DNA from: Gemmatimonadota bacterium
GTDB taxonomy: Bacteria; Latescibacterota; UBA2968; UBA8231
Direction of reading: 5' to 3'
DNA length: 40,238 bases
Assembly: GCA_002712305.1 (NCBI GenBank)
Contig: PATE01000104.1
Coordinates: 1 to 40,238 of the forward strand
A program made the translations under genes and the position numbers. The notes under the pieces are model-generated. The model saw nothing but the letters and a program-made list of their open reading frames with translations. It ran no database searches and was not told the origin of the DNA. Shown piece after piece: positions 8,973 through 25,128 of the stretch (its first letter is position 1; each line of letters begins with the position of its first letter).

Positions 8973-9977
8973 CTAGAAGAAACTGCTGCGTCTTAACGGC
9001 ATATCATCGGGGAAGGGATACACATTCCCCCACAACAGCGCACCGAGGATCATGACGGCCAGATACCAGAACAGAAGGCGGCGGCCGAACACGGCACCGA
9101 GGGTTCCCACCGTGTGAAACTTGGTTGCAGGGCCCGCGATGAAAAAGGCCAGGGCCGCACCAGGCGTCATGCCCATCTGAATCATGATTTCGACAATTGG
9201 CAACGTGCCCCCGCCGCAAGCGTACAAGGGAACTCCCAGGGCGACGGCAGCCGGTACCGACCAACGGCTTCCCGCTCCGAGGACCGTTCGAACGAACTCG
9301 GGTGAAAGGAGGGCTGCCGAAAGGGCGGCGATCAGAATTCCGATGGTAAACCATTTGGAGATGAAGGCCAGATCCTTCGTGAATCTGCGCGGCAGCTCAC
9401 TCCAGGCGGGCTGGGCAAGGGCCGCACCCGAGCCGCCGGCCACGACGGGGTATCTGTCGGGCTGAGGGAGAATGGTCGAGGCGAGATGCCCATACCGCTG
9501 CAGAAGTTGGGTGCCGAAGCCTGCCACGAGCCCGATCGACACAGCGGTCAATGTGCGAGCTGTCGCCATCTCGATACCGAGTGTTCCATAGGTGTAGGTG
9601 AACAGCGCCGGGTTCATCAGAGGCGAGGCGAAGAGGAACGCCATCACAGGTGGGGCGATGACACCTGACTGCAGGACCCGGGCGGCCACGGGAATGGCAG
9701 CGAACGTGCACAGGGGGGACACCAGCCCCAAAATGGTGGCCCCGAACACCGCACCGGTGCGGTGCTTTCGCAAGACCCTGTCGAGACGTGCCCGCGGCAA
9801 CAGGTGAGAAGCCAGGGCGCTGCATGCCGCACCTGCGATCACCCAGAACCACAATTCTGCAGTCAGCTCAAAAAACTGAATACCCACCTCACCGGTGTAG
9901 GTACCCGGTAGCTCGTCTCGACACCAGTCGGCCGCGTAGTACAGCAGATAGGTCGGGGACCACAGGAACTCAGACAA
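8973..9977 (-). CDS. Permease of the PF03773 (ArsP/DUF318) family
   Basis: The 334-aa protein has about eight hydrophobic segments. It carries the paired family signatures LGLVSPLCTFAAIPVAARVL and ASPLMNPALF in the first half, and GVPLYACGGGTLPIVE with MTPGAALAFFIAGPATK in the second half. Characterised relatives export organoarsenicals, and others are linked to metal handling. The Cys in each half (SPLC, YAC) fits a thiol or metalloid substrate, but specificity is not proven. The longest frame starts at TTG 9977 with no clear ribosome-binding site, so a somewhat later start is possible. It stops about 190 bases upstream of the lipoprotein start. Confidence 0.8.
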   Translation of the reverse strand: MSEFLWSPTYLLYYAADWCRDELPGTYTGEVGIQFFELTAELWFWVIAGAACSALASHLLPRARLDRVLRKHRTGAVFGATILGLVSPLCTFAAIPVAARVLQSGVIAPPVMAFLFASPLMNPALFTYTYGTLGIEMATARTLTAVSIGLVAGFGTQLLQRYGHLASTILPQPDRYPVVAGGSGAALAQPAWSELPRRFTKDLAFISKWFTIGILIAALSAALLSPEFVRTVLGAGSRWSVPAAVALGVPLYACGGGTLPIVEIMIQMGMTPGAALAFFIAGPATKFHTVGTLGAVFGRRLLFWYLAVMILGALLWGNVYPFPDDMPLRRSSFF

Positions 9978-10059
9978 GATGGAGGCGTCGACTCGGAAAG
10001 GGTTGCAGCAGGGGGAGTTACGACCGCGTGGATGGCTATTGTACCCGGCGATCCGGTCT

Positions 10060-10088
10060 TTGACAACCGATAGTCTGCTCAGTAGGTT
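10060..10088 (+). promoter_or_regulatory. Candidate promoter for the TPR-rdgB genes
   Basis: A perfect TTGACA (10060-10065) is followed by 17 bp and TAGGTT (10083-10088), which matches TATAAT at three of six positions. The start would be near 10095, about 58 bases before the TPR-protein ATG. It lies in the divergent gap with the permease gene. Confidence 0.4.
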
Positions 10089-10152
10089 GAGCGACCTTCA
10101 TCTGCCGCTGCCAGGCCATCCCAAATGCACGAAAAACCACTGCCCAGATGCT

Positions 10153-11244
10153 ATGAATTCGAACTTCGTCAGGTCACTCGCTACACTCGCGCTGCTCGCT
10201 TGCCTGCAGGCAGCAGACGCTGCGCCGTCCTCGGAAGCGGTCGCCCACTACCGATCTGGTTATGAACTGTTGAGAGCTCGGGATTTCCGCAACGCCGCCA
10301 TCGAGTTGGAGCAGGCAGTGCAGCTTGACTCTGCCTACGGTGACGCTCTCTATGCGCTGGGCACGGCGCACGCTTCCCTTCAAGATTTCAATAAGTCCGC
10401 TTTGGCACTTGAAGCAGCTTTTCGCCACGGAACCAGTCGCCCTGAACTTGTCGAACGGATCCCACGGTTGCTGGGCGACCTGCACTTCAAAGCAGCCCTG
10501 AAGTCGCGCAAGCAGCGCCGATATGGAGAGGCCATCGATCACTTTGGTCAGTCCCTCACCTATCGCCCCGGCAACGCGCAGGCACACTTCAGCATCGGCA
10601 CCTGCCATCTGCAGCTACGACGACGGGAAGAGGCGCGCGGTGCGTTTCTGGCGGCAATTGAGGCTGATGCAGGCTACAAGTGGCCATACGTATCCCTAGG
10701 GAATATCCATCGACGTGCTGGTGAACTGCGGCAGGCACGAAGCATGTATGAGAAGGCGATTTCCCTGGATGGAGAGTTTGCTGATGCCTTTGAGGGTCTT
10801 GCCCATGTGCAGATTGCATCAGACGACCTCGAAGGAGCCGTGGTCACCTTACGGAAGGCGGTGGACATCAACGGCGACTATACGGAAGGGTTTGTCCTGA
10901 TCGGCACCGCCCTCAATCAACTCGGCCGTCACGGCGAGGCCATCGAACCGCTACAGCAGGCGACTCAGCTCGAAGCAAAGAACGCGGACGCGCACTACCG
11001 ACTGGCCGAGGCCCATCTTGGGACGGGCAGCTACCGTGACGCGGTGCAAACTGGGAAAAGGGCCGTCACCCTGCGTCGCGATTTCCACGCTGCGCAGGTC
11101 ATCCTCGCCGACGCTCACTTCAAGTTGGGCGACCTCGATAAAGCCCGTCGGTTGTACACCGCTGCAGTGAGCGACAGCCGCTTCAAGGACTACTGCCAAC
11201 ATCAACTGGCGGAAATGGATCGGCCCCCAGTCGAGGGTGGTTAG
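10153..11244 (+). CDS. Exported tetratricopeptide-repeat protein
   Basis: The 363-aa product begins MNSNFVRSLATLALLACLQA, a signal peptide with likely cleavage after ADA near residue 24. It continues with about eight to nine TPR units (for example AHYRSGYELLRARDFRNAAI, EARGAFLAAIEADAGYKWPY, EAIEPLQQATQLEAKNADAH), filling nearly the whole protein. The frame is open upstream to 9979, but this ATG is the first that gives a signal peptide. Its ribosome-binding site is weak. TPR solenoids act as protein-interaction scaffolds, here in the periplasm. It ends 18 bases before rdgB. No enzymatic domain is visible. Confidence 0.8.
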   Translation: MNSNFVRSLATLALLACLQAADAAPSSEAVAHYRSGYELLRARDFRNAAIELEQAVQLDSAYGDALYALGTAHASLQDFNKSALALEAAFRHGTSRPELVERIPRLLGDLHFKAALKSRKQRRYGEAIDHFGQSLTYRPGNAQAHFSIGTCHLQLRRREEARGAFLAAIEADAGYKWPYVSLGNIHRRAGELRQARSMYEKAISLDGEFADAFEGLAHVQIASDDLEGAVVTLRKAVDINGDYTEGFVLIGTALNQLGRHGEAIEPLQQATQLEAKNADAHYRLAEAHLGTGSYRDAVQTGKRAVTLRRDFHAAQVILADAHFKLGDLDKARRLYTAAVSDSRFKDYCQHQLAEMDRPPVEGG

Positions 11245-16407: not shown

Positions 16408-17889
16408 ATGGCGAAGGTTCTCGACGCCCCGTCACACAGCCTCCGAGAGTTCCGCATCCTGCCGGGCTACACGCCTCCGGATGGCAATGCCCTCAACGTC
16501 AATCTGACCACTCGACTGTGTCGACACGGGGACGGATTCCTCGAGTTGCACTGCCCCTTCCTGTCCGCCGCAATGCAAGCGGTGACCGGGGTGGATATGG
16601 CGATTGCCATCGCTCAACTCGGCGGTATAGGGATTCTGCCAGTCAGTCAGACCATCGAAGATCAGGCCGACAAGATCGGGCGCGTGAAACGCTTCAAGGC
16701 CGGTTTCCAGACCTCGTTGACGACATTGTCCCCTCAGCACACGATCGCCAATGCCATACAGATCATCGAGGAAACGGGCTATTCCACCTTCCCCGTGACC
16801 GATTCGGGTGATTTCCACGGCAAATTGCTCGGAGTTATCACCGACAAGGACTTTGACGTGCGCCGGGATCATGCGTGCACGGTGGAAGAGCGAATGAGGA
16901 CGGACGTCAATCATGGCGTCAATATCCAGGATCTGAAGGAAGCCAACCAACTGATGATCAAGTTCGGCCGCGGCTTCCTGCCCATCGTCAACGACGGTGG
17001 CAAGCTGATCTCGGCCGTCTTCAAGAAGGACCTCGACAAACATCTGCAGCATCCGAATGAGTCGATTGACGTCAAAAAACGTCTGCTCGTGGGTGCTGCC
17101 GTCTCCACGCACCCAGAAGACCGCGAACGTGTTCAGTGCCTGGTGGAACAAGAAGCTGATGTCATCGTCATCGACGCGTCCGACGGGCATACGCACTACC
17201 AGCGCCAGATGATCGAATGGATCAAGGGTAACTACGATGTTCCCGTGATCGGTGGAAATGTGGTGACCGCCCAAGCCTTTGAGTTCCTCGTTGATGCCGG
17301 CGTCGACGCTGTAAAGGTGGGGATGGGCATTGGCTCGGGCTGCACAACCCAGGAGGTGAAAGCCACCGGGCGCGGTCAGGGGTCAACGTTGCTTGATATC
17401 CCCCCGTCGCGCGATCGACATGCGGACAAGACCGGCGCCTACATCCCCATCGCCGCAGATGGTGGAATCAGCGGCCCTGCCGACATGTCCGTCGCCCTGG
17501 CCCTGGGTGCCGACACACTGATGATGGGCAACTTCTTCGCTCGATATACCGAGTCTGCGGGCAACCTGATGCGCAATGCAGCGGGCGAGATCGTCAAAGA
17601 GTATTGGATGGAGGGCAGCGCCAAGGCCAGCAATCACCGACGCTACTCACAATTGAAGAACCTCTTCTTCGAAGAAGGGATCACCGGGTTTGTCCCACAC
17701 CTTGGGTCCATCTTCGAGAAACTTCCTGTCGTGTTGCAGATCCTTCGATCGACGATTGCCACTGCGGGTTGTCGGTCCATCGACGAATTGCACACCCAGG
17801 CGGTACTTGAGAAGCAATCGCCCACGGCTCTGCGCGACTCCGACATCCACGATATGGTGCCCGCCAATATCGACCAGCAGATCTTGTAG
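16408..17889 (+). CDS. guaB: IMP dehydrogenase, divergent (protozoan-like) type
   Basis: GuaB oxidises IMP to XMP with NAD, the committed step to guanine nucleotides. The 493-aa protein has a TIM barrel interrupted by a tandem CBS module (about 110-220, with STFPVTDSGDFHGKLLGVIT). The catalytic loop reads GIGSGCTTQEV with Cys312, where most bacteria have GPGSICTT. The flap reads EGSAKASNHRRY, retaining the Arg412-Tyr413 pair that separates IMP dehydrogenase from GMP reductase. The loop and EYWMEGS resemble the kinetoplastid group more than E. coli GuaB. AAGGA precedes the ATG. It lies 11 bases before the phosphonate-cluster TIM-barrel gene. Confidence 0.9.
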   Translation: MAKVLDAPSHSLREFRILPGYTPPDGNALNVNLTTRLCRHGDGFLELHCPFLSAAMQAVTGVDMAIAIAQLGGIGILPVSQTIEDQADKIGRVKRFKAGFQTSLTTLSPQHTIANAIQIIEETGYSTFPVTDSGDFHGKLLGVITDKDFDVRRDHACTVEERMRTDVNHGVNIQDLKEANQLMIKFGRGFLPIVNDGGKLISAVFKKDLDKHLQHPNESIDVKKRLLVGAAVSTHPEDRERVQCLVEQEADVIVIDASDGHTHYQRQMIEWIKGNYDVPVIGGNVVTAQAFEFLVDAGVDAVKVGMGIGSGCTTQEVKATGRGQGSTLLDIPPSRDRHADKTGAYIPIAADGGISGPADMSVALALGADTLMMGNFFARYTESAGNLMRNAAGEIVKEYWMEGSAKASNHRRYSQLKNLFFEEGITGFVPHLGSIFEKLPVVLQILRSTIATAGCRSIDELHTQAVLEKQSPTALRDSDIHDMVPANIDQQIL

Positions 17890-17900
17890 CGGTTGGGAAC

Positions 17901-18758
17901 GTGATGAAGATCGGCTACTCCACATGGGGGATGCCGGAGACACCGATCGATGTGGCCCTCGACCACCTAGGTGGTTTGGGCTTCACCGGGGTCGAACCTA
18001 CCGTCATCCCTGGCTATTCGACTGAATTGGATGGACTCGATGCGGCGGAGCGCAGTCGTATCCGACGTCGATTCGACGAACTTGGTCTGCAGATGCCCGC
18101 CGTCGCCGGGCATCGGTCTCTCACAGCGCGCGACAACACCGAACACCAGGAGAACTGGCGACGCCTGACGGGTGCCATCGATCTATGTGCCCAGTGGTCA
18201 GGTGCCGAGGGTACTCCGGCTCTCGACACAACCCTCGGACTCCGTCCGGAAGATTGGGAACCCCAGCGGCAGTTTGTCCTCGATCGAGTGGGGGAGTTGG
18301 TATCCTACGCCGGGAAGCGCGGTGTTGTGGTGGCGATCGAGCCCCATGTCGGCTCAGCACTCGATCTGCCGGAGAAGGCCGTTTGGCTCCTTGAGCAGAT
18401 CGGCTCCCAATTCCTGAAACTCAACTTTGACATCAGTCACTTCGATGTCCTCGGCATTCCCACGGCTGAATCGGTGGCTGCCCTCGCACCTCATTCTGTG
18501 CACACCCACGTGAAGGACCAGCGGGGAAGAGCCCCGGATCATGAGTTCCTCATTCCGGGTGAGGGGCCGTTCGATTTCTGTGAATACCTGCAACACATGG
18601 CAGCAGCCGGCTACGATGGCTTCGTCACGGCTGAGGTGAGTGTCATGGTGCAACGACGGCCGACCTACGATCCTCTCGGTGCCGCCGAATTGACGTTTCG
18701 CACACTCAGGGAAGCGTTTTCGGCGGCGGGGCTCGAACCGGGATTGGCAGCCCGTTGA
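17901..18758 (+). CDS. Sugar-phosphate isomerase/epimerase-like TIM barrel
   Basis: The 285-aa protein belongs to the AP-endonuclease-2/xylose-isomerase-like TIM-barrel superfamily (PF01261). Metal-binding residues expected for the fold map to Glu147 (AIEPH), Asp177 and His180 (NFDISHFD), His203 (HTHVKD) and Glu245 (VTAEVS), so a divalent-metal enzyme acting on a sugar or small polyol is likely. It follows guaB by 11 bases and precedes the phosphonate genes on the same strand. Its role there is not established. It may isomerise a hydroxylated substrate, or be unrelated to phosphonates. An alternative start one codon later is possible. Confidence 0.82.
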   Translation: MMKIGYSTWGMPETPIDVALDHLGGLGFTGVEPTVIPGYSTELDGLDAAERSRIRRRFDELGLQMPAVAGHRSLTARDNTEHQENWRRLTGAIDLCAQWSGAEGTPALDTTLGLRPEDWEPQRQFVLDRVGELVSYAGKRGVVVAIEPHVGSALDLPEKAVWLLEQIGSQFLKLNFDISHFDVLGIPTAESVAALAPHSVHTHVKDQRGRAPDHEFLIPGEGPFDFCEYLQHMAAAGYDGFVTAEVSVMVQRRPTYDPLGAAELTFRTLREAFSAAGLEPGLAAR

Positions 18759-18822
18759 GCACAAGCGATCGACGTACCGACAGGAGCCATCAGGGCTCCG
18801 CCTGCGCGAATGGTGTCCCACG

Positions 18823-19881
18823 ATGAAAGTGACCACTGCCGCGCAGATCTTCGATGGTCCGGGTCAACCATTTCGCCTCGAGCAGTTGCCACTTCCGGAT
18901 CCCGGACCCGGTGAACGGATCGTGGCAGTAGGGTGCGCGACGCTTTGCGGATCCGACATTCACACCGTCGATGGACGCCGCCGCGAGCCGACGCCTGCGA
19001 TCCTCGGACACGAGGGGATTGGCCACGTGATTGCGGCTGGACCAGGCGCAGAGGCAGATGTGGGCCGTAGAGTTACGTGGAGCCTGGCAGACAGTTGTGG
19101 TCACTGTCGATTCTGTCGTCGACATGATCTACCGCAGAAGTGCGACCGCTTGTTCAAGTATGGGCATGCGGATCTGGCCGATGGCTCTGGTCTGAATGGT
19201 ACCTACGCGTCGCATATCCTTCTGCGGGCTGGAACTCATCTCGTCGACATACCCGATTCGATCAGTGACCCGGTTGCGGCGCCTGCCAACTGCGCCCTGG
19301 CCACGGCGGCGGCGGCCCTTGATGCACTGCCACATAGCGCAGAGCGAGTTCTTGTTCAAGGCGCAGGTCTTCTAGGTCTCTATGCGGCAGCCCTGTTGCG
19401 ACACCGAGGTGTGGATTGTGTGATGTGCAGCGATCCGGTGGAAAGGCGTCTCGAACAGGTGGCAAGCTGGGATGTAATGCCCATCGAACCCGAGAACGTT
19501 TCGCAGATCGAAGAGTGTGATGCCGTGTTGGAGATGTCGGGTCATGCTGACAGCGTCGTGGATGGTGTCCAGGCGTTGAGGGTTGGAGGAACCTACGTCC
19601 TGGTTGGGCTCGTCCATCCGGACAGCGCGCTGGCGCTGACGGGAGAACAGATCATCCGCAAATGCCTGCGGTTTCAGGGAGTACACAACTACGCCCCAAG
19701 GCACCTGGATGAGGCCATCGACTTCCTCACAGACGTGGGAGCCGACGATCGTTTGCTTCAACTCGTGTCCCCTCCGCGCCCACTGGCGTCGCTGGACGAC
19801 GCGTTCGATGAGGCGCGAACTCAGACTTGGCACCGCGTGTCCGTCACTCCGAATCCGCCCTCGTCGCCTCAGGAGAACTGA
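18823..19881 (+). CDS. Zinc alcohol dehydrogenase, phosphonate-catabolism type
   Basis: The 352-aa medium-chain dehydrogenase keeps catalytic-zinc ligands Cys42 (CGSDIH) and His63-Glu64 (GHEGIG), and structural-zinc cysteines 92, 95, 98 and 107. A nucleotide-binding loop reads VQGAGLLGLYAA. The CGSDIHTVDGRRREP region and the overall layout match what I know of the TIGR03366 family, the putative phosphonate-catabolism-associated alcohol dehydrogenases. It is joined to phnA by a one-base TGA/ATG overlap. The inferred role is oxidation of a phosphonate alcohol, for example 2-hydroxyethylphosphonate, to phosphonoacetaldehyde. The activity is unproven. Confidence 0.85.
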   Translation: MKVTTAAQIFDGPGQPFRLEQLPLPDPGPGERIVAVGCATLCGSDIHTVDGRRREPTPAILGHEGIGHVIAAGPGAEADVGRRVTWSLADSCGHCRFCRRHDLPQKCDRLFKYGHADLADGSGLNGTYASHILLRAGTHLVDIPDSISDPVAAPANCALATAAAALDALPHSAERVLVQGAGLLGLYAAALLRHRGVDCVMCSDPVERRLEQVASWDVMPIEPENVSQIEECDAVLEMSGHADSVVDGVQALRVGGTYVLVGLVHPDSALALTGEQIIRKCLRFQGVHNYAPRHLDEAIDFLTDVGADDRLLQLVSPPRPLASLDDAFDEARTQTWHRVSVTPNPPSSPQEN

Positions 19882-21134
19882 TGTCATCAGATGCAGCGTC
19901 CCCGTCTCGGCTGCAGGTCAACGGTCGAGACTATACGATGCCACGAGTGCCGATAGTGGGTATCTGTCTCGACGGGTGTGAGCCAGCCTATCTCGATGAA
20001 GCCGCGTCGCAGATGCCCCACCTGGCGGCCATCGTTTCAGACGGTGTCCGAGGCGAAGCGCACACCGTGGTCCCGTCTTTTACCAATCCGAACAATGTGG
20101 CGATCGTGACGGGTGTACCTGCCGCCATCAATGGCATTGCCGGCAACTTCTACTACGACGCGGAGACTGACAGCGAAGTCTTGATGAACGACCCCCGTTG
20201 GTTGCGCTGCCCGACGCTGCTGGCAACCTTCAGCCAGGCCGAACTCGACGTGGCGGCGGTGACGACGAAGGACAAGTTGCGCGCCTTCCTTGCCCAAGGA
20301 CTGGCGGAAGGTGCCGTCGCGTTCTCCGTGGAGAAGGCCGACGAGGCACAGGTGGCGACCCACGGAATCGGCGACGTGTTAGAGATGGTGGGACGCGCGA
20401 ATCCTGGGATTTATGACCCTGAGGCCAGCGTATTCTGTATCGAAGCAGGTGCTCGCTTGATGGATCGCAAGGCAACGGACGTCCTGTACCTGTCGACGAC
20501 GGACTTCGTCCAACACAAGTGGGCCCCTCACGAGCCGGAAGCGATCGCCTTCTACGCTCGCCTCGATGAGTTCCTCGGCCAGTTGCATGCATCGGGTGCC
20601 ATCGTCGCCATCACGGCTGACCATGGGATGAATGGGAAAACGATGGAGGGCGGTTCGCCCAATGTCCGCTATCTGGAGACGATCCTTGTCGACAGTGGAG
20701 TTGCGGAGGCGCGCGTCATTCTGCCCATCACAGACCCCTATGTGGTTCATCACGGCGCCCTCGGCTCGTACGCCACCGTCTACGTCGACGATCATCACGT
20801 GACGGTGGCTGCTCAGCGTCTGAGGGGCATCGATGGCGTCGAGGCCGTTCACACACGCGCCGAAGCGGCCGAACGGTTCCAGTTGCCCCCGGACAGAATC
20901 GGCGACCTGGTCGTGCTGGCCGACCGAGGCACGGTGCTGGGGCGCACGCCGGACTGGCACGACTTGAGCGATGTTGCGGACGGATTGCGCTCGCATGGCG
21001 GTCTACACGAAGCAACGGTGCCCTTCATCGTCAATCGACCATTGAACGGAGAGTTCTCCGATCAACTCGAGGGGGGCAAGTTGCGAAACTATGACCTATT
21101 CCAGGTTCTGTGTGATGGATGGGCCGATGCTTGA
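19881..21134 (+). CDS. phnA: Phosphonoacetate hydrolase
   Basis: PhnA cleaves the C-P bond of phosphonoacetate, giving acetate and phosphate, using a two-zinc alkaline-phosphatase-fold site. From the ATG that shares one base with the dehydrogenase stop, the product is 417 aa, the usual size. The nucleophile is Thr68 (PSFTNPNN). Zinc ligands map to Asp31, Asp208, His212, Asp247, His248 and His376, almost the same numbers as in the Sinorhizobium enzyme. The frame is open further upstream to 19827, but the coupled ATG fits length and motifs. It overlaps phnY by eight bases. This is the cluster's most diagnostic gene. Confidence 0.93.
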   Translation: MSSDAASPSRLQVNGRDYTMPRVPIVGICLDGCEPAYLDEAASQMPHLAAIVSDGVRGEAHTVVPSFTNPNNVAIVTGVPAAINGIAGNFYYDAETDSEVLMNDPRWLRCPTLLATFSQAELDVAAVTTKDKLRAFLAQGLAEGAVAFSVEKADEAQVATHGIGDVLEMVGRANPGIYDPEASVFCIEAGARLMDRKATDVLYLSTTDFVQHKWAPHEPEAIAFYARLDEFLGQLHASGAIVAITADHGMNGKTMEGGSPNVRYLETILVDSGVAEARVILPITDPYVVHHGALGSYATVYVDDHHVTVAAQRLRGIDGVEAVHTRAEAAERFQLPPDRIGDLVVLADRGTVLGRTPDWHDLSDVADGLRSHGGLHEATVPFIVNRPLNGEFSDQLEGGKLRNYDLFQVLCDGWADA

Positions 21135-22551
21135 GTTTGGCACCATTGCCAATGGCACACAGGCATCGGGTGACCAGTGGCTCGATGTAACCAGTCCATA
21201 CGACGGCCGCGTCGTGGGTCGTGTGGCCATGATCGGGGCAGAACGCGGCGCGCAGATCCTTGAAGAGACATACTCAACCCGTGTCGAGCTAACGCGACGC
21301 CAGCGAGCCGACGTGTTGGAGTCCATGGCCGATGCGATCGATGAACGCCGGGGCGAAGTGTCGCAGCTGATCACCGATGAAGCGGGTCTATGCGTGAAGG
21401 ACTCCATGTACGAGGCAGGGCGTGTTGGAGATGTCCTGCGATTCTCCGCCGCGCGGGCTCTGGAGGACGACTCTGAGGTTTTCCCCTGCGATATCACGCC
21501 CCACGGTCGAGCAAGGCGCATCTATACTATGCGCGAGCCCTTACGTCTTGTTTCGGCGATCACTCCCTTCAATCATCCGATGAACCAGGTCGTTCACAAA
21601 GTGGCGCCGGCCATTGCCGTGGGGACGCCTGTAGTGCTCAAACCATCGGAGAAGACCCCTCTGTCTGCCTATTGGCTGGGCCAACTGGCGTTGGACTGCG
21701 GCTTACCCGCCAATGCGCTCAATGTGATCAATGGGCCGTTGGCCGAGATCGCTCCGCTGTTGGTTCAACACGAGCGAGTAGAGATGGTCACCTTCACAGG
21801 GTCGAGTGCCATCGGTCGACAGATCGCCGAGCAAGCCGGATACAAACGTCTGATCCTCGAGTTGGGGGGCAGCTCGCCTCTCTTGGTTTTGGAGGACGCA
21901 GATGTCGAGGCGGCTGTGGAGATCGCCATGGCGGGGATCTTCAAGAACTCTGGTCAGCGCTGCACAGCGATTCGACGCCTCGTCGTCCATCGGTCGTTGG
22001 CCGATCGGTTCGCCGAGAGTCTCGCAGCCGCGACGGCTCAGTTGACGTGTGGCGACCCATACGATGAAGCAACCGATATGGGCACCGTCATCGATGAAGA
22101 CGCTGCCCGCCTGCTGGAGAGTCGGGTGAATGGCGCGGTGAAAGCAGGGGCGCGTGTACTGACGGGCAACCGTCGGGAGGGAGCTCTGTATTGGCCCACC
22201 GTCGTAGATCAGGTTGAGAACGACTATGATCTGGTTCGGTCGGAGAGCTTCGGACCCATTGCCTCGATTTTGCGCTTTGACGATCTGAGTGAAGCGCTCG
22301 CCATCGCCAACGACACCGAGTACGGTCTGTCCTCGGGCGTGGTGAGTCAGCACTGGCCTTCGATTCAAGCGTGCATCAGTGGCATTGAGGCAGGCACGGT
22401 CAACGTCAACGAAGCACCCAGTTACCGGCTCGAATGGACTCCCTTTGGCGGCATCAAAGCCAGCGGATTGGGTTACAAGGAGGGCGTCATCGAGACGATG
22501 AAGGCCATGACCTACGTGAAGACCTATTCCCTTCCGTGGGACCGTCCGTGA
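21127..22551 (+). CDS. phnY: Phosphonoacetaldehyde dehydrogenase
   Basis: PhnY oxidises phosphonoacetaldehyde to phosphonoacetate with NAD, feeding PhnA. The 474-aa product is an aldehyde dehydrogenase. It has FNHPMNQVVHKVAPAIA with VVLKPSEKTP (cofactor), TFTGSSAIGRQI, the general-base region LELGGSSPL and the catalytic cysteine in NSGQRCTA. The C-terminal block NEAPSYRLEWTPFGGIKASG is characteristic of the PhnY branch. In-frame ATGs at 21091, 21115 and 21127 all overlap phnA. I chose 21127, which gives MLEFGTIANG and the shortest overlap. No phnW (aminoethylphosphonate transaminase) follows or precedes it. Confidence 0.92.
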   Translation: MLEFGTIANGTQASGDQWLDVTSPYDGRVVGRVAMIGAERGAQILEETYSTRVELTRRQRADVLESMADAIDERRGEVSQLITDEAGLCVKDSMYEAGRVGDVLRFSAARALEDDSEVFPCDITPHGRARRIYTMREPLRLVSAITPFNHPMNQVVHKVAPAIAVGTPVVLKPSEKTPLSAYWLGQLALDCGLPANALNVINGPLAEIAPLLVQHERVEMVTFTGSSAIGRQIAEQAGYKRLILELGGSSPLLVLEDADVEAAVEIAMAGIFKNSGQRCTAIRRLVVHRSLADRFAESLAAATAQLTCGDPYDEATDMGTVIDEDAARLLESRVNGAVKAGARVLTGNRREGALYWPTVVDQVENDYDLVRSESFGPIASILRFDDLSEALAIANDTEYGLSSGVVSQHWPSIQACISGIEAGTVNVNEAPSYRLEWTPFGGIKASGLGYKEGVIETMKAMTYVKTYSLPWDRP

Positions 22552-22610
22552 GCCAGAACGAGGTCAACGTCGCCGTTCTTGCTGAAATCGCTGAATCGCC
22601 GTCGGACTGA
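22548..22610 (+). CDS. Possible 20-aa ORF coupled to phnY, or gene remnant
   Basis: GTG at 22548 overlaps the phnY stop as GTGA and opens MSQNEVNVAVLAEIAESPSD followed by TGA at 22608-22610. The composition is that of an ordinary protein N-terminus, but the frame ends just before the convergent oxidoreductase gene. It may be the stump of a lost fourth gene of the phosphonate operon, or chance. Confidence 0.25.
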   Translation: MSQNEVNVAVLAEIAESPSD

Positions 22611-22618
22611 TCCCGCAA

Positions 22619-23641
22619 CTACAGACTCGCCAACTCCACCTTCCGCCCCTCGCTGAGACTGACTTGCACGGCCTCGGTGAACGTCATGTATTTCACACCG
22701 TCGTCGAAATTGGTGTGGGTGACCGGTTTGCTATCACGGATGGCGTTGACGAAATCTGCTTCAACATCCCACCCCCAGGCTTTCTCGGGAGAGATCTCGA
22801 GGACACGGAAATCGTCGTCCCCCTCCAGCGCCACGTAGGCGCTGCCCCCCTCGAGTTTGAAGGCCCCCTTGGTCCCGTGCGCTTCGATCTCACCCCCTCG
22901 ACCGTGTTTTGCCACACTGCTGAGGTGGTAGACGGCGGTCGCATCGTTCTCGAGGTGTGAAACCACGCCGAGGCTCTCCGGTACATCGACGGCCCGTGTA
23001 CCACCCTCAGGACTATGTCTCTTGGGGGTGAAGGTGTGCGCTTGAGCGATCAACGATCGGTCATGTCCGGCGTATCTGCGTACCGTCTCATTGAGAATAC
23101 CCATGGACATGATATTCTGACCGGATAGATCGCGACGCTGACGCCAATGCAGGGGGGCCGACGGATCCCATCCGCCACCCAGTGCGTTGACGTGGATCTC
23201 CAACAGATCACCGAATGCACCCTCAGCAACCATCTCCAGCAACGTTGGCTCGCTCTCCAGATAGAAGGGTGCGGGTACGATCATGGCGACTCGATCGGAA
23301 CCGGCAGCGGTCGCTTGCATTCGCCGAGCCTCGGCCAGATCCATGGCCATTCTCGCCTCGGTGAGCACGTGTTTTCCTGCCTCCAAGGTTGCCAGACTGA
23401 TCTCACAGTGCAGATACGGCCACGTGCCGATGCAGACGGCGTCGACGTCATCAGCCTGCACCAGATCCAGCCAGTTCTCGTAGACGCGGGCGATGCCGAA
23501 TTCATCCGCCGCCTTCTGCCCTGATTCCCGTGTCCTGTTGCAGACGGCGATCACCTCTACGCCGTCGATCTCCTGGAAGCCGGGAATGTGACGACTTCGG
23601 GTATTGGCTCCAGCGCCAACGATGCCGATGCGCAGACTCAT
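22619..23641 (-). CDS. Gfo/Idh/MocA-family oxidoreductase lacking the EKP lysine
   Basis: The 340-aa protein begins MSLRIGIVGAGANTRSRHIPGF, the NAD(P)-binding Rossmann start of the family, and has the C-terminal alpha/beta substrate domain (IMSMGILNETVRRY, GTKGAFKLEGGSAY). Family members usually carry EKP after GKHV, whose Lys is catalytic. Here the segment is GKHVLTEARMAMD, so that Lys is absent. ATG at 23641 overlaps the M81 gene stop as ATGA with GGAG seven bases upstream, so the two are coupled. The longer frame to 23674 is unlikely. The role could be a sugar or inositol dehydrogenase-like function, but the missing Lys makes the chemistry uncertain. Confidence 0.82.
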   Translation of the reverse strand: MSLRIGIVGAGANTRSRHIPGFQEIDGVEVIAVCNRTRESGQKAADEFGIARVYENWLDLVQADDVDAVCIGTWPYLHCEISLATLEAGKHVLTEARMAMDLAEARRMQATAAGSDRVAMIVPAPFYLESEPTLLEMVAEGAFGDLLEIHVNALGGGWDPSAPLHWRQRRDLSGQNIMSMGILNETVRRYAGHDRSLIAQAHTFTPKRHSPEGGTRAVDVPESLGVVSHLENDATAVYHLSSVAKHGRGGEIEAHGTKGAFKLEGGSAYVALEGDDDFRVLEISPEKAWGWDVEADFVNAIRDSKPVTHTNFDDGVKYMTFTEAVQVSLSEGRKVELASL

Positions 23642-25128
23642 TTGCTGTCTCCTGCGTTGGGTGTCAGTGTCCATTCGTAGAGTTGTGTTCGAGCATGTTC
23701 ATAGGACGACGGCCCCCTTCCAATCCAGCAGGCGCCACCCGAATCGACTTCGATCAGATGAGGTGACACGGGTTCATAGGCCGCCCGTGGCGCGATGGCG
23801 CCCTTTGCGGCGAGGATTTTCTGCTGCGCAGGCACAATGCCCACACTCGTGATCTGATGGATGCTGTTGGGCGACTGCCGTTCACTGTTGATCACCAGAG
23901 AGCCACTACCTTCCCCACACGGGACCCGAACGACGACCGTGAGTCCCTGGTGATGGCGGCGACCACCCCCGTGTCGTCGTTCGAACTCTTCGTAGTTGCC
24001 GTCGCTCAGGGTTCTGACAGTGCCTTGAACGGACTGCGTTGTGCCATGTTCGGTGTCTGTCTTTGCGCCCACCTGCAGATCGACGGCACCGCCGATGCCC
24101 GCCTGTTGGCACTGCTTCGCCGCATCTGGATCCCAGATCGTCACGACCCAGCCATCTGCTTGCTGTGCAAGCAGCTGCTCGAGCACGAAGGTGGAGTCTC
24201 CGGCTGAACCACCGCCGATATTGTCGCCAAAGTCCAACAGCGTTGTCGGATTGTCGTCGCTGGCGATCGCCTGCCGAACGGCGGCGGCAGGGTCTGGAAC
24301 GTCGAGAACCAACTGCTCTCGAATTGACCACATGGCGTCGCCGATCTTCTCCGCCTCGCGGGTTGCCAAATCTGCATCTCCATCGGTAACCAAGACGATG
24401 GCAGGTCCCATCCATTCCACATCCGCGTACTGATAGCCGGCTGCGATCGATGCCGCCAGGATGCCGGGCCTCTGTTCGAGTTCTATCGCTTGCTGCATCA
24501 GCGGCTGCATCGGCGCGACACTTGTGTTGTGGAAATAGATATTGAACACCACTTCAGGGTTCACCATGTGCATCTTCGGACAAATCTCGCCGCGGATGGT
24601 GCGGGCAAGGATCTTCGCCGCCTGAATGCCTCGCTCGCGCTGATCGATATGTGGATTCGTCTTGTAAATGACGAGGACATCGGCATACGCGATCAGCTCA
24701 GGCGGCACGTTGGCATGGTAGTCGTGGGTTACGACAATGGGAATCTGATCACCCACCTGTTCGCGCACTCGGCGGACCGTCTCTGCATCTCCGTGCCCGA
24801 TTCCCTCGACAACCATGGCCCCGTGAAGCGCCAGAAGGACGCCGTCGACGGGGCCCAGATCAGCGAGGCCTGTGAGAATACGACCAACGAGTGTCTCGTA
24901 GTCTGCAGTCGTCACCGGACCGGCGGGGGTCGCCGTCGCTGACAGGAGGGGCAGCAGTTGCATGCCTTCCTCCTGGGCGGCAACGATATATCCTGCGATC
25001 TCGTGATACGTATCAGCATTGTCATCGAGCAGTTGCTGGCCAACCTCAATCTCGAAGTCGTCGAGGGTCGTTGGCTGGCTCGAGAATGTGTTGGATTCGT
25101 GGGCGAAGCCGGCAACTGCAACACGCAT
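23638..25128 (-). CDS. M81-family (MlrC-like) metallopeptidase
   Basis: The 496-aa protein matches the M81 family (microcystinase C, formerly DUF1485). It begins MRVAVAGFAHESNTFS with the conserved HESNTF at 10-15. It carries LHGAM (101-105), the metal-binding THDYHAN (134-140) and DFGDNIGGGSAGD in the C-terminal domain. Characterised MlrC cleaves linearised microcystin peptides. Most bacterial relatives have unknown substrates and often sit near amidase or sugar-acid genes. GGAG six bases before ATG 25128 supports the start. It is coupled to the Gfo/Idh/MocA gene downstream. It is cytoplasmic, since there is no signal peptide. Confidence 0.88.
   Translation of the reverse strand: MRVAVAGFAHESNTFSSQPTTLDDFEIEVGQQLLDDNADTYHEIAGYIVAAQEEGMQLLPLLSATATPAGPVTTADYETLVGRILTGLADLGPVDGVLLALHGAMVVEGIGHGDAETVRRVREQVGDQIPIVVTHDYHANVPPELIAYADVLVIYKTNPHIDQRERGIQAAKILARTIRGEICPKMHMVNPEVVFNIYFHNTSVAPMQPLMQQAIELEQRPGILAASIAAGYQYADVEWMGPAIVLVTDGDADLATREAEKIGDAMWSIREQLVLDVPDPAAAVRQAIASDDNPTTLLDFGDNIGGGSAGDSTFVLEQLLAQQADGWVVTIWDPDAAKQCQQAGIGGAVDLQVGAKTDTEHGTTQSVQGTVRTLSDGNYEEFERRHGGGRRHHQGLTVVVRVPCGEGSGSLVINSERQSPNSIHQITSVGIVPAQQKILAAKGAIAPRAAYEPVSPHLIEVDSGGACWIGRGPSSYEHARTQLYEWTLTPNAGDSK

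Follow-up and report, generated by a model that had tools for sequence, protein, structure and literature searches.

A phnA-phnY locus of a Latescibacterota genome, its unlinked phnW, and an adjacent zinc dehydrogenase that may also supply phosphonoacetaldehyde

Which enzyme supplies phosphonoacetaldehyde to PhnY and PhnA when no phnW gene stands beside them is the question raised by contig PATE01000104.1 (C104) of the draft genome of a sponge-type Latescibacterota bacterium (GenBank assembly GCA_002712305.1; genome G000, 4.77 Mb, 90.9% complete), whose 40,238 nt were analysed at full length and are called the window below. Within this 40-kb window, genes for a TIM-barrel protein, a zinc alcohol dehydrogenase (ADH), the phosphonoacetate hydrolase PhnA, and the phosphonoacetaldehyde dehydrogenase PhnY lie in a row, and no phnW was found. 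A first-pass annotation had read this as a transaminase-free entry into the pathway, with the TIM-barrel protein isomerising a precursor and the ADH oxidising the product. By searching the whole genome and comparing the locus with those of its family and of other phyla, we found a full-length phnW on another contig and a conserved linkage of the ADH gene to phnA. We propose, with about equal chances of being right or wrong, that the locus encodes a phosphonoacetaldehyde-degrading module that is fed by PhnW in trans and may also be fed by the adjacent ADH acting on a hydroxy-phosphonate.

PhnA, PhnY and an unlinked PhnW

NCBIfam profile searches assigned the product of 19881..21134 (+) to PhnA, with 484.6 bits against TIGR02335 (curated cut-off 407.55), and the solved PhnA structure 1EI6 was matched with 408 bits. 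As previously claimed, the active site is intact: in the alignment with 1EI6, T68 is the threonine nucleophile, and D31, D208, H212, D247, H248, and H372 are the six metal ligands. For the phnY product (21127..22551, +), TIGR03250 was by far the closest family with 613.9 bits, slightly under the cut-off of 635.65, which is exceeded by the PhnY of two relatives at the same locus. Its best solved match is the Sinorhizobium PhnY (4I3T, E 9e-133), with which the active-site C279 (in NSGQRCTA), H150 (in ITPFNHP), E245, R99, and R434 are identical in alignment. Among the three families that the first-pass annotation had named, TIGR02335 was thus matched above its cut-off, and TIGR03250 and, for the ADH, TIGR03366 were by far the best matches, with scores slightly below theirs. 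Based on these assignments, PhnY would convert phosphonoacetaldehyde to phosphonoacetate, which PhnA would split into acetate and phosphate.

The coordinates confirm four genes on one strand with overlaps of one and eight bases: the stop codon of the ADH gene (18823..19881, +) ends at 19881, where the phnA ATG starts, and the phnY ATG at 21127 precedes the end of the phnA stop at 21134. The previously given extent of 17901-22610 needs small corrections at its ends, as phnY stops at 22551, not 22610, and the TIM-barrel open reading frame probably starts with the ATG at 17904, 3 bases past the GTG taken before.

A full-length phnW was detected in the same genome (G000:C74:9759-10874), scoring 546.5 bits against TIGR02326 (cut-off 400.8), keeping the pyridoxal phosphate lysine K199, and matching a solved PhnW with an E value of 4.5e-149. 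Because contig C74 has the same GC content as the window (60%) and a tetranucleotide profile correlating with it at 0.97, contamination is unlikely. The absence of phnW therefore holds for the window but not for the genome, in which phnW, phnA, and phnY all occur, with phnW unlinked (C74 versus C104). A phnW gene in the same genome with conserved linkage in relatives had been named as one finding that would speak against transaminase-free entry; the gene is there, and its linkage to the locus is not. Since the same genome carries a full-length phnW, nothing here requires a transaminase-free pathway, and such an entry was dropped as a necessary reading. This PhnW would make phosphonoacetaldehyde from 2-aminoethylphosphonate (AEP). 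The next gene downstream of phnW encodes a metallo-beta-lactamase-fold protein weakly similar to PhnP. Sequence comparison thus supports the naming of all three Phn proteins (PhnA, PhnY, and PhnW), as well as the conserved link between the ADH gene and phnA described below.

Genome G000 gave no match to PhnJ of the C-P lyase, and neither PhnX nor phosphoenolpyruvate (PEP) mutase was found over cut-off, which speaks for catabolism and for breakdown by PhnY and PhnA. A search of G000 at E 1e-40 did not detect the flavin adenine dinucleotide (FAD)-dependent oxidase TIGR03364. One PhnD-type binding protein exceeded its cut-off, on contig C93, where its gene is followed by an ABC ATPase gene at the contig end (L087 8166-9760); the pair is a candidate importer of phosphonate, phosphite, or phosphate.

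The zinc dehydrogenase accompanies two routes of phosphonoacetaldehyde breakdown

The ADH keeps the catalytic zinc ligands C42, H63, and C157 and the conserved structural cysteines C92, C95, C98, and C107, and its gene adjoins phnA in 10 family genomes. When 84,980 genomes were scanned with profile guidance, 80 loci with a TIGR03366-type ADH were returned, 78 of them outside the family, and marker genes were tallied within 6 kb of the ADH gene; many contigs are short, so the counts are lower bounds, and they are per locus, so that further marker genes may lie elsewhere in those genomes. At least 34 of the 78 non-family loci have a phosphonate gene within this distance: 13 have PhnA or PhnY, 20 have PhnX or a PhnX-like haloacid dehalogenase protein, 14 have the FAD oxidase, and only 3 have PhnW. 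A PgtP/GlpT-like transporter (11 loci) and, at some loci, PhnCDE-type ABC genes recur as well. A quick tree placed the ADH of the window in a 30-row clade (SH-aLRT, an approximate likelihood ratio test, 100) holding both PhnA/PhnY-linked and PhnX-linked members.

PhnX forms acetaldehyde and PhnY-PhnA ends in acetate, so that what the two routes share is their intermediate, phosphonoacetaldehyde; an ADH found with both therefore most simply makes or removes this compound. Its position beside phnA in 10 family genomes and its recurrence in other phyla argue that the ADH belongs to the module. This wider gene context strengthens the earlier proposal, in which the dehydrogenase oxidises an alcohol to phosphonoacetaldehyde, and leads us to infer that the enzyme would act on a hydroxy-phosphonate, most simply 2-hydroxyethylphosphonate. 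For substrate and direction this is the best reading, with prospects at or somewhat below an even chance.

Planctomycete clusters (L138, L145, L151, L158, L169, L170, L171, L174) combine a TIGR03366 ADH with a PhnZ-type oxygenase, the TIGR03364 FAD oxidase, PhnX, and a membrane protein resembling the major facilitator superfamily, the one scanned member of which had no NCBIfam match.

An unrelated iron dehydrogenase in a similar position

On plasmids of proteobacteria, the iron dehydrogenase TIGR03405 (PsrA), non-homologous to the zinc ADH, is repeatedly encoded next to phnA-phnY or phnX. The gene orders are psrA-phnA-phnY in Ensifer, phnA-ADH-phnY in two Variovorax, and psrA-ABC-phnA-phnY in Leisingera; with phnX, they are phnDCE-psrA-phnX in Comamonas and psrA beside phnX in Agrobacterium. 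No phnW was found in the plasmid stretches examined around this dehydrogenase. PsrA stretches are L091, L096, L220, L221, L222, and L224, some with PhnCDE transporters.

From these gene contexts, a substrate can be predicted directly for two families of dehydrogenases: tentatively, and with somewhat less confidence than the assignment of the window locus, TIGR03366 zinc and TIGR03405 iron dehydrogenases may be catabolic 2-hydroxyethylphosphonate dehydrogenases that feed PhnY-PhnA or PhnX in a widespread route free of both C-P lyase and transaminase. If the dehydrogenase route is true, its products would be phosphate and acetate, and gene surveys could count hydroxyethylphosphonate users that are now overlooked.

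Variation of the locus among relatives

Conserved flanks frame the locus in family genomes, with ABC-ABC-IMPDH to one side and Gfo/Idh-M81 to the other. In the window these are represented by an IMP dehydrogenase-like (IMPDH) gene on the left (16408..17889, +; NF005493, 443 bits) and by genes for a Gfo/Idh/MocA oxidoreductase (22619..23674, −; PF01408) and an MlrC-like M81 family metallopeptidase (23638..25128, −; PF07364) on the right, all syntenic in relatives. Between the flanks, variable sets occur of the TIM-barrel protein, two short-chain dehydrogenase/reductase (SDR) proteins, ADH, PhnA, PhnY, the FAD oxidase, and an ion channel. Of these loci, that of G012 (L040) is the fullest, with IMPDH-TIM-SDR-SDR-ADH-PhnA-PhnY-FAD; the same-genus G001 (L038), with ADH-PhnA-PhnY-FAD, lacks TIM and SDRs, and the window, with TIM-ADH-PhnA-PhnY, lacks the SDRs and the FAD oxidase. 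In most relatives the two SDR proteins, weakly like the glucose-6-phosphate dehydrogenase Azf, are encoded consecutively between IMPDH/TIM and ADH (L039 11887-13307, also L040, L042, L043, L045-L047, L049, and L065); they are seen neither in the window nor in G001.

The FAD oxidase occurs in 11 family genomes (G001 and 10 others), G000 not among them, and comes after phnA or phnY in most relatives, where it would act as a further, PbfD-type entry enzyme at the same locus. Most relatives thus likely use a transaminase-free entry of the PbfD type. In the window, the corresponding site is a gap of 67 bp that separates phnY from the Gfo/Idh gene (22552..22618, no strand) and from which the oxidase gene is absent. 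A candidate remnant in this gap was rejected as too weak, its nucleotide score being equalled by 3 of 500 shuffles and its protein score by 28 of 500.

Only three family genomes carry phnW: G000, G007, and G019. In G007 and G019, phnW stands directly beside a second phnA-phnY pair, in a phnA-phnY-phnW cluster away from the old locus, and its PhnW is 78% identical to that of C74; in G007, and in G019 to the extent that its fragmented contigs reveal, the old locus keeps ADH and FAD oxidase and lacks PhnA-PhnY. The genomes G020-G023 carry phnY apart from phnA, at another site; the G020 gene (L083 8336-9772, G020:C9) and its equivalents in G021-G023 encode proteins that share 65% identity with PhnY from the G007 phnA-phnY-phnW cluster. 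In G024 (L044, G024:C1:2555000-2574999; 9250-10783), short fragments of ADH and FAD oxidase flank a nearly full-length phnA, as if decaying.

The TIM-barrel gene (17904..18758, +) encodes a xylose isomerase-like protein (PF01261, 95 bits) that stays far below the cut-offs of the hydroxypyruvate isomerase and IolE families (45.3 versus 353 and 34.3 versus 290, respectively). Orthologues 71-72% identical directly follow IMPDH (12-57 bp) in G004, G008, G011, G014, and G017 of another genus; these genomes have no phnA, and no ADH, phnA, phnY, or FAD oxidase gene was seen beside their IMPDH-TIM pair. At the 10 ADH-phnA loci of the family, the gene is present in only 3, and it is missing from that of G001. 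Accordingly, when conserved TIM-barrel/ADH/phnA/phnY linkage was surveyed, the ADH part held in the family and in other phyla and the TIM-barrel part did not. Because of this narrow distribution and the IMPDH pairing in five phnA-less genomes, the protein was judged to lie outside the phosphonate module and was rejected as its isomerase, the comparative context assigning the gene to its IMPDH neighbour. Most simply, IMPDH-TIM would be a long-standing pair beside which the phosphonate genes later arrived.

Weighing the possible roles of the dehydrogenase

Several observations weigh against a phosphonate-specific role of the ADH in supplying the module. The window enzyme scores 311.5 bits (E 6e-93) against TIGR03366, under the curated cut-off of 328.1; its G012 orthologue reaches 352 bits. 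In the literature searched, no TIGR03366 member is tied to a measured substrate, and nothing was found that names TIGR03366, its family title, or PsrA with phosphonate. At about half of the ADH loci outside the family, no marker gene lies nearby, and in a Poribacteria clade of 12 no member has any; no phosphonate-specific residue signature was seen either, as the residues conserved in linked members are equally conserved in unlinked ones. In the family itself, G015 has ADH and PhnA, while PhnY, FAD oxidase, and PhnW were not found in its genome.

The locus could instead be one half of an ordinary PhnWAY pathway split over two loci, with the ADH peripheral, for example acting on a side product or reducing excess phosphonoacetaldehyde. 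The presence of all three genes in G000 and their single cluster in G007 and G019 fit this explanation, which we nevertheless consider rather unlikely, because the ADH keeps its place by phnA in relatives that lack phnW and turns up with PhnX as well as with PhnY-PhnA, two routes that end in different products. Less probable again is that the ADH oxidises another phosphonate upstream of an amine oxidase or oxygenase, such as 1-hydroxy-2-aminoethylphosphonate. Its frequent company of FAD oxidase (14 of 78 loci) and PhnZ-type oxygenase genes would agree with this, as would its nearest characterised relatives in NCBIfam and PDB, which include L-threonine 3-dehydrogenases; yet the window and several other loci have neither FAD oxidase nor PhnZ and hold only PhnA and PhnY or only PhnX. 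The complete first-pass model, in which the TIM-barrel protein and the ADH act in turn as the sole entry, draws on the tight one-strand arrangement of the four genes and is now very improbable, given PhnW in the genome, the IMPDH-paired TIM-barrel orthologues of phnA-less genomes, and their lack at the matching G001 locus. A module with PhnW in trans and the ADH as a second supply is thus the reading that we prefer.

Comparison with known phosphonate systems

The window genome resembles classical PhnWAY systems in having phnA and phnY adjacent and phnW in the genome, and differs in carrying phnW on a separate contig and an ADH gene within the operon, whereas classical clusters keep all three genes together. 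The genes phnW, phnY, and phnA have already been reported in sponge-associated Latescibacterota (PMC12993501). A transaminase-free start is likewise known, since PbfD2-PhnY-PhnA clusters are published: PbfD-type FAD enzymes (TIGR03364) convert N-methyl-AEP to phosphonoacetaldehyde, PbfD2 also acts on AEP, most pbfD2 clusters lack phnW, and one with PhnY and PhnA occurs in Luteolibacter luteus (PMC10590968). The phnA-phnY core is shared with this cluster, and relatives carry the FAD oxidase right after phnY without phnW, but the window genome lacks the oxidase, has phnW, and adds the ADH. The FAD enzymes PbfB-D do not oxidise 2-hydroxyethylphosphonate (PMC10590968), and its oxidation was once named as a possible, less likely role of PbfF, which was not the answer there (PMC12366243).

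As for dehydrogenases, PhpC-type phosphonoacetaldehyde reductases belong to the iron-ADH family and are described for biosynthesis (PMC9381506). If our proposal for the ADH holds, they would act on the same two compounds as it does, turning 2-hydroxyethylphosphonate and phosphonoacetaldehyde into each other; they differ in family and in their described role, and the window genome has no PEP mutase over cut-off. With TIGR03366 (HpnZ_proposed), the putative phosphonate catabolism associated ADH family, the window enzyme shares the best match, zinc ligands, motifs, and a phosphonate neighbourhood; it differs by its sub-cut-off score, and the function of the family is itself putative. The PsrA loci offer a parallel in arrangement, an alcohol dehydrogenase beside phosphonoacetaldehyde breakdown genes in a stretch without phnW, built with an iron-containing enzyme non-homologous to the window ADH.

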